A model generated the notes under the pieces. It was not told where the DNA came from. It did no database searches and saw only the letters and a program-made list of their open reading frames with translations. A stretch of DNA of 64,000 nucleotides from Halarcobacter sp. Its GTDB lineage: Bacteria > Campylobacterota > Campylobacteria > Campylobacterales > Arcobacteraceae. The stretch is taken from positions 1-64,000 of the forward strand of contig JAQYVX010000006.1 in the NCBI GenBank assembly GCA_030145305.1, given 5' to 3'. Shown one piece after another: positions 2,915-38,587 of this stretch. The stretch's first letter is position 1, and each line of letters opens with the position of its first letter. The translations under genes and the position numbers were made by a program.

Positions 2915-5190
2915 TGTATTTTAAAACCTTAATAATAGTCTTTATTTTATTTGGATCAACTTTATATTCAAAAGAATTAGAAAAAATATCATTACAACTA
3001 GATTGGCTGCATCAATTTCAATTTGCAGGTTATTATATTGCTAAAGAGAAAGGCTTTTATAATGATGTCAATTTAGATGTAGATATCAAAGAATTTAATT
3101 CAAATACTAAATTAGTAGATGATATTCTTAATTCAAAAACTGATTATGCAATAGGAAAATCTTCATTAATAATGGATGCACTTGAAAATAAAGAAATCCT
3201 ATTATTATCTGCAATTTATAAAAGTTCTCCTATTGTTTTAATTTCATTAAATAAGTCTGGAATAAAAAAACCAATTGATTTAATAAATAAAAAAATCATG
3301 CTAACAAAAGATGCAAAATCTTCTCCTAGTATAATATCAATGCTAACCTCCCAAGGGGTAAGTATTGAGAATAGTAATATTTTGCCACACTCTTTTAAGA
3401 TAAATGATTTAATTAATAATAAAACTGATGCAATGGCATGTTATTTATCTAATGAGCCATATTTGTTAAAACAAAAAGGAATAGATTTTACAATTCACAA
3501 TCCAAGTGATTATGGTTTTGATTTTTATGGAGGTTTACTTTTTACTTCAAAAAAAGAGTTACATAACAACTCCTTAAGAGTCAAAAAGTTTCAAAGTTCG
3601 AGCTTAAAAGCTTGGAAATATGCTTTTGATAATATAAATGAAACAGCAGAAATAATCTATGAAAAATACAATACTCAGAATAAAACATTAGAAGCTATAA
3701 TATTTGAAGGAGAAACACTTAAAAAGCTTGCTAACTTAAAAGAAGGAAAAGTAGGAGAAATTGATCAAAATAAAATTGAAGAGATAAAAAGATTATATTT
3801 TTTATTAGGAATAACTAGCAATAACAAAAATTTTGAAATTAATGATTTAATATATAATCCAAATAAAATATATTTAACAAAAGAAGAAAAAGAATACTTA
3901 GAAAAAAATGAAATCACACTTTTAACAAACTCAAATTTTCCACCATTTACAATAATTAAAAATAGTTCTCTATCTGGCATTGAAATTGATTATTGGAATT
4001 TAATTAATAAAAAACTACAAATTATTTCTGCAAATACACAAACTATAGAAAAAAATTCTTTTGCCATTGACATATTAAAAAACAATCAAAATAGTATAAA
4101 ATATGCATTTTCTGAAAATGACAATAATAGTTTTTTAAAAAAAACAAATACTATAGATGAACTATCAATTGGTATTGTAACATTAACTGATAAACCTTTT
4201 ATAGCTAGTATTTCTGAGATAGATAATAAGAAAATTGCTATTATAAAATATTCTAGTTTTAATGAGAACCTAAAACTGGAATATCCAAAAATTAATTTTA
4301 TAGAAACAAAAAATTTCAAAGAGAGTTTGAAGCTTTTGTCAGAAAAAAAAGTTTTTGGAGTAATTGATAAATTACCATTACTTTCATATAATATAACAAA
4401 AAACTCTCTTACAAATATAAAAATATCTGGAACCTTAGACAAAAAATTTCATATGAAACTTTTAGTTAACAAAGAGAATCCACTTCTGTTAAATATTCTT
4501 AACAAAACAATCTCTACCATAAGCAGTAAAGAAAGAGATGAAATTAATAAAAAATATTATTCAATAATATATCAAGCATCAATTGATTATTCTTGGATAT
4601 ATAAAATTGTAATTCCACTTCTAATTATATTATTTATAGTAATGATTTTAAATTTTAGATTAAAAAAAGAAATAAAAAAACGTAAAAAAATTGAAAGAGA
4701 GTTAAATAAAGTGGCAAATATGGACTCTTTAACAAATATTTATAATAGAAGAAAAATTGAATCCTTATATGAAAATGAACTCGCAAGAATAAAACGTTAT
4801 AAAAGAGACCTTTCTGTTATTTTCTTTGATGTAGATGATTTTAAACAAATTAATGACTCTTTAGGCCATGTTATTGGTGATTATGTATTAGTAAAAATTG
4901 CATACCTAATAAAAGATAATATAAGAAATGAAGATTTCTTTGGAAGATGGGGTGGAGAAGAATTTTTAATAGTTTTGCCTGAAACAAATAAAGAAAAAGC
5001 TTTAAAAGTAGCTTGTATTTTAAGGGATAAAATAAGTTCATATGATTTTTGCATAAATAAAAAGATTACTTGTAGCTTTGGTGTTTCCCAATTTAAAGAT
5101 TTAGATTCCGCAGACTCATTATTAACAAGAGCTGACAATGCCATGTATCATGTGAAAAAAAATGGCAAGAATGAAGTTAAAGCGGTATAA
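2914..5190 (+). CDS. Periplasmic-sensing diguanylate cyclase: NMT1 + SBP3 + GGDEF
   Basis: 758 aa. Order of parts: signal peptide or anchor (1-20); an NMT1/THI5-like binding domain (about 22-300, with ISLQLDWLHQFQFAGYY typical of pyrimidine-precursor and riboflavin-type binding proteins); a second solute-binding domain of the SBP_bac_3 type (about 325-550, TLLTNSNFPPFT); one membrane helix (about 565-587); a short linker; and a GGDEF domain. The active loop is GGEEF at 680-684, and an intact inhibitory I-site RNED sits at 671-674. It should make cyclic di-GMP in response to one or two periplasmic ligands, acting as a one-protein receptor rather than a transporter. No ABC genes are adjacent. 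The ligands are unknown. Confidence 0.9.
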   Translation: MYFKTLIIVFILFGSTLYSKELEKISLQLDWLHQFQFAGYYIAKEKGFYNDVNLDVDIKEFNSNTKLVDDILNSKTDYAIGKSSLIMDALENKEILLLSAIYKSSPIVLISLNKSGIKKPIDLINKKIMLTKDAKSSPSIISMLTSQGVSIENSNILPHSFKINDLINNKTDAMACYLSNEPYLLKQKGIDFTIHNPSDYGFDFYGGLLFTSKKELHNNSLRVKKFQSSSLKAWKYAFDNINETAEIIYEKYNTQNKTLEAIIFEGETLKKLANLKEGKVGEIDQNKIEEIKRLYFLLGITSNNKNFEINDLIYNPNKIYLTKEEKEYLEKNEITLLTNSNFPPFTIIKNSSLSGIEIDYWNLINKKLQIISANTQTIEKNSFAIDILKNNQNSIKYAFSENDNNSFLKKTNTIDELSIGIVTLTDKPFIASISEIDNKKIAIIKYSSFNENLKLEYPKINFIETKNFKESLKLLSEKKVFGVIDKLPLLSYNITKNSLTNIKISGTLDKKFHMKLLVNKENPLLLNILNKTISTISSKERDEINKKYYSIIYQASIDYSWIYKIVIPLLIILFIVMILNFRLKKEIKKRKKIERELNKVANMDSLTNIYNRRKIESLYENELARIKRYKRDLSVIFFDVDDFKQINDSLGHVIGDYVLVKIAYLIKDNIRNEDFFGRWGGEEFLIVLPETNKEKALKVACILRDKISSYDFCINKKITCSFGVSQFKDLDSADSLLTRADNAMYHVKKNGKNEVKAV

Positions 5191-36680: not shown

Positions 36681-36885
36681 CATGTATTAATTAGTAAAAA
36701 ATGATAAAAAAAATTTATTTTTTTACTAATTTTTCTTAAATTAAATACTATTACTCCCAAAAATTTATTTTACAAAGTCCATTAAATAGGCTTATTTTAA
36801 AACAAGAATATTTTTAAGTTTCAATTTAGCTTATTTATTTTTTTTTGTTTTATAATTCTGCTTGTAGAATAAGAAAAAATTAAGT
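36681..36885. other. AT-rich intergenic stretch, no gene seen
   Basis: This part of the 373-base gap between sucD and the next gene has long A and T runs and no credible reading frame on either strand. The only motif I can support is the -10 box at 36851-36856. The remainder of the gap holds RNA element copy 1 and a short leader. Confidence 0.6.
36851..36856 (+). promoter_or_regulatory. -10 box in front of RNA element copy 1
   Basis: A perfect TATAAT, preceded by T-rich DNA, predicts a transcript starting near 36863, about 23 bases before the structured element. It makes the element a likely 5' leader or a short RNA. Confidence 0.5.
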
Positions 36886-36963
36886 ATTTGAAAACCCATC
36901 AAAGCATTTGGCCGTGCACTTTATTGATTTTCAGATTTGTTGTATTCAAAGCTGCTTGGATAT
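36886..36963 (+). ncRNA. Structured RNA element, copy 1 (unknown class)
   Basis: An enclosing helix P1 pairs 36886-36894 (ATTTGAAAA) with 36928-36936 (TTTTCAGAT). Inside is a conserved stretch: CCCATC, then a hairpin AAAGCA / TGC-AC-TTT with loop TTTGGCCG (36901-36922). After P1 comes the linker TTGTT, then hairpin P2 (36942-36949 with 36956-36963, loop AGCTGC). The 32-base core 36891-36922 matches copy 2 at 31 positions. The element ends 46 bases before a small gene, with a further short hairpin (GACAA/TTGTC, 36973-36987) in between. It may be a cis-regulatory leader or a small RNA. I do not recognise a known riboswitch consensus. Confidence 0.65.
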
Positions 36964-37009
36964 ATTTATATTGACAAAACTGTTGTCCATTACTTTTTAG
37001 GAGTATAAA

Positions 37010-37237
37010 ATGTTAAAAATATTATTATCAACGCTATTACTATCACTAGCGTTATTTGCAAATGTAACAATTGAAGATGAATTAGCAAAATGTGAAGATA
37101 TATATGTTTCATGTTCTGCAAAATGTGAAGAAGTAGAAGATTCAAAATCAGAACAATGTATTGAAAAATGTGACAAAACATACTATGACTGTGAATCAAA
37201 AGTTATCGAAAAATTTGAAGAAAAAACACAAAACTAA
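37010..37237 (+). CDS. Small secreted protein with mirror-symmetric cysteine pattern
   Basis: 75 aa. A signal peptide (MLKILLSTLLLSLALFA) is followed by a mature ~57-residue, mostly helical and acidic domain. The six cysteines are spaced C-x6-C-x3-C-x10-C-x3-C-x6-C, which is symmetric about the middle. The central C-x3-C-x10-C-x3-C resembles the twin CX3C arrangement of disulfide-linked helical hairpins. It is probably an oxidised periplasmic protein. Function unknown. AGGAG precedes the ATG and RNA element copy 1 lies just upstream. Confidence 0.8.
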   Translation: MLKILLSTLLLSLALFANVTIEDELAKCEDIYVSCSAKCEEVEDSKSEQCIEKCDKTYYDCESKVIEKFEEKTQN

Positions 37238-37297
37238 TTAATTTTATTAAAATAGCTTATTCTACATTTTATATTAGTATAGCTCTTAGGATAAATA

Positions 37298-37708
37298 ATG
37301 AAAAACAATTTGTATAAAAATTTAGTAAAACAATATTATGAAGAATTATGGAATAAACAAAATAGAAATTATATAGATATATTATTTGATGATAATATTA
37401 CTTTTAGAGGCTCTTTTAATGTAGAAGGAAAAGGCAAAAAAGAGTTTGAAAAGTATATGGATAATGTCTTAATAGGAATTCCTAATTTGTATCATGGAGT
37501 TGAAATTATGGTTTTTGAAAATGAGCTTTTAGCAACAAGAGCTGTATATAATGGAACACATAAAGGGGAACTTTTTGGTTTTGAAGCAACTAACAATAGA
37601 ATAAAATATAACGGAGCTTCATTTTTTAGATTTAATAATGATAAAATTGCTGATGTATGGGTTCTAGGAGATTTAGTAACTTTACATAAACAGTTAGTTC
37701 ATAAATAA
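37298..37708 (+). CDS. SnoaL-like / ester cyclase family protein
   Basis: 136 aa, an NTF2-like alpha+beta barrel of the SnoaL-like ester cyclase group, judged by the N-terminal YYEELWNKQN, FRGSFNVEGKGKKEF, and the C-terminal FRFNNDKIADVWVLGD. The family includes polyketide cyclases and many uncharacterised small proteins, so no substrate can be named. No signal peptide. AGGAT precedes the ATG. It lies between the two RNA elements. Confidence 0.75.
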   Translation: MKNNLYKNLVKQYYEELWNKQNRNYIDILFDDNITFRGSFNVEGKGKKEFEKYMDNVLIGIPNLYHGVEIMVFENELLATRAVYNGTHKGELFGFEATNNRIKYNGASFFRFNNDKIADVWVLGDLVTLHKQLVHK

Positions 37709-37774
37709 TAAAACTATTTTAAATCAGATTAGTAATTTTTTTATGCTAATAAGAGAAAAGAAGAGGTTCAAAAA

Positions 37775-37854
37775 TCCTAAAAACCCATCAAAGCATTTGG
37801 CCGTGCATTTTAAAAAGTTTTTAGGAATTGTTGTACTCTATTATTAAGAGTTAC
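37775..37854 (+). ncRNA. Structured RNA element, copy 2 (unknown class)
   Basis: P1 pairs 37775-37784 (TCCTAAAAAC) with 37817-37826 (GTTTTTAGGA), ten perfect pairs whose sequence differs from copy 1. The enclosed core 37780-37811 differs from copy 1 at one base, a C to T in a predicted bulge of the inner hairpin. The linker TTGTT (37828-37832) is conserved, and P2 (37833-37839 with 37847-37854, one bulge) again keeps pairing while changing sequence. It lies 96 bases before a small gene. A -10-like TATGCTAAT at about 37742-37750 could start the transcript just upstream. The remaining leader can form two more weak hairpins. Confidence 0.65.
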
Positions 37855-37950
37855 TTTATACTAACAAATTAAACTTAGCATTTTGTTAAATAAAGTCTAA
37901 ATGTATAAAATACTTTTTTTATCATTTAGTTTAAATTTATAGGAAAGAAT

Positions 37951-38181
37951 ATGATAAGATGTGATGGTGATTTTATAAATAATTATTCAATAGAAGAACC
38001 TATAAACAAAATAGTTTTTCAAATTAGTAGTTGCATAAAAAATCATCAAGATTATAAAGGTGCGATTAAATTAATTTTAGACAATAATCTTAAATTAGAA
38101 GATGTCGTATTAAGAACAGTTAGATTAACTTTTAAAGATGTTGTTGAATTAGCAAATAGACTAATTCTTAGTAAATCATAA
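37951..38181 (+). CDS. Small protein of unknown function, paralogue of the gene at 38378
   Basis: 76 aa, no signal peptide, predicted helical. Aligned to the protein at 38378 it shares INxIxxQ, IK, Y, A, the block DNNLKLED/ENNLSLDQ, T, L, LA and a C-terminal SK, so the two are tandem paralogues. GGAAAG precedes the ATG. It is the first gene after RNA element copy 2, and the next ATG follows its stop codon directly. I recognise no named family. Confidence 0.72.
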   Translation: MIRCDGDFINNYSIEEPINKIVFQISSCIKNHQDYKGAIKLILDNNLKLEDVVLRTVRLTFKDVVELANRLILSKS

Positions 38182-38385
38182 ATGGAAAAAAATATGGAAT
38201 CACTTATTTATGAATTAAGAGCAAATGATATTAAAGAAAAAGATATCGAAGCTATAATGAATAGAATTAAAAATAGAGTTTCTGAAAAAAATGTTGATAT
38301 TGAGCTAGAAAAACTTGGATATCCAAAAATATTTACAATTGATTATGACGATTATGAATATGATTATGGAGATGATGATGATTAG
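38182..38385 (+). CDS. Small acidic-tailed protein of unknown function
   Basis: 67 aa. A helical, charged N-terminal part is followed by an extreme acidic tail rich in Asp and Tyr (DYDDYEYDYGDDDD). The ATG abuts the previous stop codon; an internal ATG at 38194 is an alternative start. There is no good Shine-Dalgarno site, so translation probably depends on coupling. Its last codons overlap the start of the next gene. The tail could mimic nucleic acid or bind metal, but that is a guess. Confidence 0.6.
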   Translation: MEKNMESLIYELRANDIKEKDIEAIMNRIKNRVSEKNVDIELEKLGYPKIFTIDYDDYEYDYGDDDD

Positions 38386-38587
38386 TGCAAATCCAAATGC
38401 TAGTATCAATGAAATAATTTATCAAGTGGTGTATTTGATTAAACATAAAGATAATTACAACTTAGCAGCAAATTTTTTATTGGAAAATAATTTAAGTCTG
38501 GATCAACTTAGTAAAAAAACTCTTAAATTATCCCAACTTGAAATTGCAAAATTAGCAGATTCTATAATAGAAAGTAAAAACTCTTAA
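38378..38587 (+). CDS. Small protein of unknown function, paralogue of the gene at 37951
   Basis: 69 aa from the ATG at 38378, which has GGAG six bases upstream. ATGs at 38372 and 38375 are also possible, whereas a longer frame reading into the upstream gene is unlikely. Homologous over its length to the 76-aa protein at 37951 (see that entry), with the pattern of a short helical bundle. It overlaps the acidic-tailed gene by 8 bases. The order paralogue, acidic protein, paralogue suggests one functional unit. Confidence 0.72.
   Translation: MISANPNASINEIIYQVVYLIKHKDNYNLAANFLLENNLSLDQLSKKTLKLSQLEIAKLADSIIESKNS

Follow-up and report, generated by a model that had tools for sequence, protein, structure and literature searches.

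Autogenous protein-binding leaders, such as those of ribosomal protein operons, serve a single operon; in them a variable stem carries a small conserved stem-loop, and the ribosome-binding site (RBS) is occluded. In FourU RNA thermometers, a run of uridines pairs with the AGGA of the Shine-Dalgarno (SD) sequence. An RNA thermometer of Campylobacter jejuni is described in PMC7592916. In Epsilonproteobacteria, the type I toxin mRNAs of the aapA/IsoA system carry local helices that mask the SD sequence and also engage in a long-distance interaction between their 5' and 3' parts (PMC6733600).

The locus analyzed here lies in a window of 64,000 nucleotides from a Halarcobacter sp. contig. Two neighboring genes in this window share at their start, as judged by sequence comparison, a folded RNA that had not been described before and is conserved in related genera. 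The two copies (36886-36963 and 37775-37854, forward strand) consist of a stem, P1, that encloses the stem-loop P2, and of a hairpin, P3. A helix over the RBS (P5, with the apical hairpin P4) follows, and a long-range helix, P0, would join the 5' end of the transcript to the region around the first stop codon (Table 1). P0, P1, P2, P3, P5 and the positions of the SD sequences and start codons were established by comparison among relatives. Like the aapA/IsoA mRNAs, which occur in the same bacterial group, this is a structured mRNA with SD-masking helices and a 5'-3' interaction (P0, in 24 of 24 units). However, the 5'-3' helix of those mRNAs masks the SD sequence, whereas the predicted folds indicate that P0 does not; the product there is a short toxic peptide of about 30 codons, whereas here it is a Cys-rich, exported-looking operon protein; and the P1[P2] loop module lacks a described counterpart in the aapA/IsoA system. 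Translational riboswitches are similar in having a conserved 5' domain and a helix over the RBS, but the RNA described here has no conserved junction, is distributed with a single operon, dispenses with its sensor module in some relatives, and matches no Rfam family. Autogenous leaders share with it the single operon, the conserved stem-loop on a variable stem and the RBS occlusion; the difference is that nearly all loci have just one product in common, the exported-looking CYS protein. FourU thermometers are comparable in some genera, where a U-run pairs with the AGGA of the SD sequence, but other genera lack this register, and a large conserved module is situated upstream. The architecture would be that of structured regulatory leaders, with an unusual long-range closure.

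Table 1. Positions of the leader elements and operon genes in the window.
Feature	Positions	Strand	Basis
Copy 1, promoter -10 box TATAAT	36851-36856	+	TATAAT-N-TAGAATAAG unique in genome; conserved upstream of CYS leaders
P0 5' arm TGTAGAATAAG, expected transcript start region	36863-36873	+	exact complement of 37256-37266
Copy 1, P1 5' strand	36886-36894	+	covariation
Copy 1, P2 stem-loop GCAU-UUGGCC-GUGC, near-invariant	36904-36917	+	comparison of copies
Copy 1, P1 3' strand	36928-36936	+	covariation
Copy 1, P3 hairpin GTATTCAA/TTGGATAT	36942-36963	+	double changes at 8 of 8 pairs in relatives
Copy 1, P5 5' arm UUUAUAUU, partner 37002-37009	36965-36972	+	family-wide permutation 0/5000; copy 1 alone weak
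Copy 1, P4 hairpin GACAA/TTGTC	36973-36987	+	comparison of P4 hairpins
Copy 1, SD AGGAG and P5 3' arm AGUAUAAA, reaching start codon	36999-37009	+	sequence, duplex test
CYS gene, 75 aa, signal-like start, CX6CX3C...CX3CX6C	37010-37237	+	ORF, family alignment
P0 3' arm CTTATTCTACA, 18 nt past CYS stop	37256-37266	+	complementarity
SnoaL-like gene, same operon	37298-37708	+	Pfam SnoaL, E 1.3e-25
Copy 2, weak -10-like box TATGCT	37742-37747	+	sequence
Copy 2, P1 5' strand	37775-37784	+	folding, covariation
Copy 2, P2 stem-loop	37793-37806	+	core match, covariation
Copy 2, P1 3' strand	37817-37826	+	folding, covariation
Copy 2, P3 hairpin ACTCT/AGAGT	37835-37851	+	folding, covariation
Copy 2, P5 ahead of 13-codon ORF: 37853-37859/37890-37896, extended by 37863-37868/37882-37887	37853-37896	+	duplex energy
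13-codon ORF MYKILFLSFSLNL after copy 2	37901-37942	+	sequence, similar short ORFs in relatives
h76, 76-aa helical protein	37951-38181	+	ORF, family comparison
acid67, 67-aa protein with acidic tail	38182-38385	+	ORF, family comparison
Second h76 paralogue, 69 aa	38378-38587	+	ORF, family comparison

A preliminary description of this DNA had drawn attention to a 32-base core shared by the copies (36891-36922 and 37780-37811). Direct comparison gave the same result, with 31 of 32 bases identical and C36919/T37808 as the sole mismatch. With as many as three mismatches allowed, the window contains the 24-mer CCCATCAAAGCATTTGGCCGTGCA two times, whereas 100 shuffles do not contain it at all, and a search of the 3.03-Mb genome at this threshold found no third copy. 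The claimed exchange of letters under preserved pairing also holds, both for P1 (ATTTGAAAA/TTTTCAGAT in copy 1, TCCTAAAAAC/GTTTTTAGGA in copy 2) and for P3, which had been named P2 in that description and is shorter in copy 2. The linker TTGTTGTA ahead of P3 is conserved, and genes for small proteins follow as stated: the 75-aa gene directly after copy 1, the 13-codon ORF and then the 76-aa gene after copy 2. The -10 boxes said to precede both copies are of unequal quality, since that of copy 1 is the consensus TATAAT and that of copy 2 merely TATGCT. The RBS-covering helix and the long-range 5'-3' pairing had been overlooked. By folding energy, copy 2 is moderately supported (z -2.31) and copy 1 is not (z +0.45); the case for the structure lies in the covariation. 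A tRNA search of the window was negative.

Covariation was evident in an unfitted alignment of 12 copies, where both sides changed at 8 of 21 pairs and the covariation score exceeded those of all 500 shuffles and all slid controls. An alignment of 28 copies contained double changes at 16 of 21 pairs (75 cells versus 23.6 in shuffles, with 0/500 reaching the observed value), but leans towards the covariance model. A second test of P1 and P2 therefore used 29 copies aligned by MAFFT alone. It yielded 23 cells versus 10.8, a covariation score reached by 0/500 shuffles, and lower values for slid controls, whereas the number of double-change pairs failed to separate from shuffles (73/500) because P1 is partly misaligned in this alignment. 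P2 itself is almost invariant. In G036 (L029) and G261 (L045), whose loops read UUGGCG and UGGUC, its first pair is A-U and not G-C, and inspection by eye suggests UAA-UUGGCG-UUA for G072 (G numbers denote genomes). Kissing of palindromic GGCC loops was considered and rejected, as the variants UUGGCG, UUGGUC and UUUAGA are not self-complementary. The internal loop between P1 and P2 reads CCCAUCAAA in close relatives; further out it is unconserved and varies in letters and length. P1[P2] is missing or altered in several relatives that keep the remainder (G057, G058, G062-G064, G079, G081, G082), and is thus not essential to the leader. In G084 (L078, reverse complement, core at 3821), P1 encloses the usual P2 stem-loop as its reverse complement (GCACCGCCAAATGC). 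Such an inversion between the P1 arms would abolish any signal carried by the RNA loop, so that G084, judging from its sequence, may be a natural loss mutant. A role of the P3 5' arm as anti-SD sequence is plausible where P3 contains GUACUC and the SD region reads GGAGUAU, but was dismissed because it is not kept where P3 differs (G093, G097).

The element is narrowly distributed. A 23-mer of the core was present in 7 of 16 genomes of the genus at up to three mismatches, and the same search in other genera of the family found none. The first covariance model (A2, R1), built from 12 copies, matched 31 times among the 104 family genomes, in 20 genomes that belong to seven genera; two of these matches are both strands of a single place in G084, which leaves about 30 copies. 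The second model (R2), built from 28 copies, added one genome from another family of the order, G261, and found nothing beyond the family and G261 among 397 genomes of the class. The element was absent from g2, a large group within the same family. Among the element-bearing records are 'Arcobacter sp.' BM102, EP1 and SZUA-449 and one 'uncultured Campylobacterales bacterium'. Every covariance-model match is located at an operon of the CYS/h76/acid67 type. A phage or other mobile origin was also considered and rejected: an exact 22-mer had no viral match, and the one 533-kb viral contig matched by a looser pattern fails the covariance model, as do the off-target contig matches examined, from Paenibacillus, Bradyrhizobium, Bacteroidetes and others. 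The preliminary description could match the copies to none of the riboswitch consensus sequences that it considered, and Rfam 15 gave nothing at gathering score in the window; a permissive search of the region and 18 copies returned scattered, inconsistent matches below threshold. As outlined by Stav et al. (2019; PMC6429828), the genome of Arcobacter sp. L was included in a screen for structured RNAs, in which most new intergenic candidates from Arcobacter were rare, restricted to that genus and left unnamed. The element could correspond to one of the unnamed Arcobacter candidates of that screen.

Most relatives share one leader plan: TATAAT, the motif UAGAAUAAG at the expected transcript start, P1[P2], P3, the conserved stretch UUUAUACUAAC, the hairpin P4, the SD sequence and the start codon. 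The stretch after P3 is complementary to the RBS of its own gene, either as AUUUAUACU with AGUAUAAAU or as CUUUUAUA with UAUAGGAG. The mean duplex energy of P5 was -6.31 kcal/mol for own arms and -5.08 kcal/mol (sd 0.26) for arms permuted among 35 leaders, and none of 5000 permutations was as good. Where the start region has changed, the P5 arms have followed it in G079 (AUUUGUACU with GGGUAUAAAUG), G072 (AUUUAUACU with AGUGUAAAUG) and G061 (UUUAUACU with AGUAUAGA). In addition, the SD sequence is mostly paired in predicted folds (unpaired probability 0.02-0.55 across 24 full-length units), and the P4 hairpin persists when its letters change, as from AACUU/AAGUU to GACUU/AAGUC in G081. On the basis of these observations, from the complementarity to the maintenance of P4, the leader is called RBS-occluding. 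P5 is strong in copy 2 of the window (-7.5 versus -1.8 kcal/mol shuffled) and weak in copy 1 (-4.4 kcal/mol, equaled by 18% of shuffles), and is not evident in G080, G083, G084 and the second copies of G056 and G035. These last two have no -10-like box in the 75 nt upstream, and that of G056 begins a few nt past the SnoaL stop codon. The lack of a recognizable promoter in these copies, together with the covariation, favors action at the RNA level over a DNA operator. Further upstream, at 36780-36850 and in the equivalent region before CYS promoters, T-tracts containing a recurring TTTAAGTTT...TTTTAG-like stretch and a AAAAAGCCACTT-like motif precede the -10 box; this region is possibly a site for a further regulator.

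All 24 units that carry the motif UAGAAUAAG after TATAAT, G261 included, also contain its reverse complement in the region of the CYS stop codon, at a distance of 339-471 nt downstream; only two of these units have a G-U pair, one each. Nine core pairs of P0 are nearly invariant, and the flanking pairs covary (G-C in 15 and A-U in 6; G-C in 16 and A-U in 6), a degree of pairing that shuffles reached in 1/500 and 0/500 cases. As a control at the same loci, a complement of at least 10 nt between the matching regions was found for 15 of 20 CYS genes versus 2 of 154 other genes. P0 is retained in units without P1[P2] (G057, G058, G063, G064, G079, G081, G082), and second copies do not have it. Direct control of SD exposure by P0 was rejected, as predicted folds without the 3' arm leave the accessibility of the SD sequence unchanged. 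A switch in which the 5' end would pair with the arm after P3 was likewise discarded, as this pairing is no better than chance (mean -2.9 versus -2.3 kcal/mol shuffled).

The CYS proteins comprise 64-119 aa; they start with a stretch resembling an export signal and contain six invariant Cys in the symmetric arrangement CX6CX3C...CX3CX6C. A profile search matched 31 of 104 family genomes. No Pfam family was found for them, and in the PDB they weakly matched hairpin-type peptides of plants (E 0.02-0.4), a likeness that is suggestive only. The neighbors of CYS form varying sets of an M42-type peptidase (Pfam E 7e-7), RimK, SnoaL, a 2OG-Fe(II) oxygenase, one or two h76-type proteins and the 67-aa acidic-tailed protein. 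Both h76-type genes of the window (37951-38181 and 38378-38587) encode small all-helical proteins and are paralogues within one operon. The acid67 core, IYELRANxI...KNRLSEENxDxEL.KLGY.K.FT.DYDDY followed by an acidic tail, occurs in 45 of 298 genomes of the class and is thus far more widespread than the RNA element. A PDB model search gave no significant match for acid67 and h76, whose members have no consistent Pfam family, and PADLOC returned one weak match only. Genes for ZntB-, MgtE-, MscK/MscS-, RimB-, RimK- and DoeB/AstE-like proteins adjoin in some genomes, with a recurring set at L061 (G060), L064 (G061), L072 (G093) and L073 (G036). A role of the operon in ion, osmotic or envelope stress would be a guess from this neighborhood. 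A link to the osmoprotectant NAGGN was examined as well and is unsupported, the M42-type gene having no NCBIfam match. Downstream of second copies of the element there is usually a gene of the h76 or acidic type, in many cases preceded by a short ORF whose beginning resembles that of CYS; such MLK-type ORFs lie in relatives at a position like that of 37901-37942. Copy 2 thus seems to have arisen by duplication of the leader, followed by decay of the associated CYS gene, and the 13-codon ORF is probably the remnant of the CYS signal peptide.

Both copies are probably modules of a structured leader that acts in cis and, as an RNA on/off switch, regulates the translation of a single conserved operon by occluding the RBS, with the P2 loop read by a factor. 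P5, which pairs the segment after P3 with the SD sequence, or the SD sequence and start codon, of the next ORF, would keep initiation low by default. A trans-acting factor may then read the conserved UUUGGCC loop of P2 and shift the folding towards exposure or stronger masking of the RBS. This factor would most likely be an RNA-binding protein, or otherwise an RNA or a small ligand. A protein or RNA is likelier than a small molecule because only the apical loop is conserved, the leader is confined to one operon family, and relatives can do without P1[P2]. P0 would close the CYS mRNA into a loop, and thereby either protect the 5' end or couple CYS to the downstream genes. Copy 2, after its presumed duplication and the decay of CYS to 13 codons, would now serve the genes for the 76-, 67- and 69-aa proteins. 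As for the new leader, small RNA or ribozyme envisaged in the preliminary description, the undescribed structured mRNA leader is retained, and with it the near-invariant apical loop on compensatory stems. A ribozyme or free small RNA is disfavored on the sequence evidence, as the copies run into an RBS and an ORF and the second copies of G056 and G035 have no recognizable promoter of their own.

A new metabolite or ion riboswitch, with P1-P2 as aptamer and P3-P5 as expression platform and perhaps responding to an osmotic or metal-ion cue, is unlikely. Such a device would explain the leader position, the invariant loop, the covarying stems and the RBS-covering helix downstream (own versus permuted, 0/5000), and the ZntB-, MgtE- and MscS-like neighbors in some genomes would fit the cue. 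However, conservation of the P1/P2 internal loop is limited to close relatives, which leaves no conserved junction for a ligand pocket, and relatives that retain the operon have lost P1[P2]. Moreover, riboswitches usually serve several operons, whereas this element accompanies one operon family, and it has no Rfam match. A quite improbable alternative is an RNA thermometer or sensor of ionic strength, in which the AU-rich P5 with its U-G pairs over the SD sequence melts unaided and P1[P2] merely stabilizes the leader. The FourU-like pairing of CUUUUAUA with UAUAGGAG in G036, G090, G094, G261 and the third G060 copy is of this kind, but other genera, including most of the window's genus, use the register AUUUAUACU/AGUAUAAAU, and a thermometer would leave the near-invariant P2 loop without a reason. 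It is very doubtful that the signal resides in the DNA, as an operator, promoter part or recombination site in which TAGAATAAG and CTTATTCTA are paired sites for a looping repressor or an invertase. The almost invariant nine core bases of the long-range repeat and the inverted P1 interior of G084 would be expected of such sites; that letters of P1 and P3 change while pairing is kept, that the repeat flanks covary as complements, and that the second copies of G056 and G035 lack a -10 box within 75 nt would not. Finally, a type I toxin-antitoxin unit with CYS as the toxin, silenced through 5'-3' pairing and SD-masking helices as in Helicobacter aapA/IsoA (PMC6733600), is hardly credible, for P0 does not cover the SD sequence and CYS is no short hydrophobic peptide but a Cys-rich protein of 64-119 aa with an export signal-like start, encoded in an operon.

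As a tentative and rather doubtful extension, the translational leader with a factor-read P2 loop may define a class of regulatory mRNA that is new: an RBS helix would be opened or closed by a factor reading the UUUGGCC loop, and the 5' end of the same transcript would be anchored at the site immediately behind the first stop codon. The RNA is conserved in seven Arcobacter-type genera and one genome of another family although no Rfam family exists for it, and it marks an uncharacterized operon for an exported-looking six-Cys protein, an M42-type peptidase, RimK, SnoaL, and small helical and acidic proteins. The pairing between the 5' end and the region after the stop codon, if confirmed, would extend the architecture of type I toxin mRNAs to a different kind of operon. 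If the extended reading is true, translational control, protection of the 5' end and coupling to downstream genes would be combined in one closed-loop fold.
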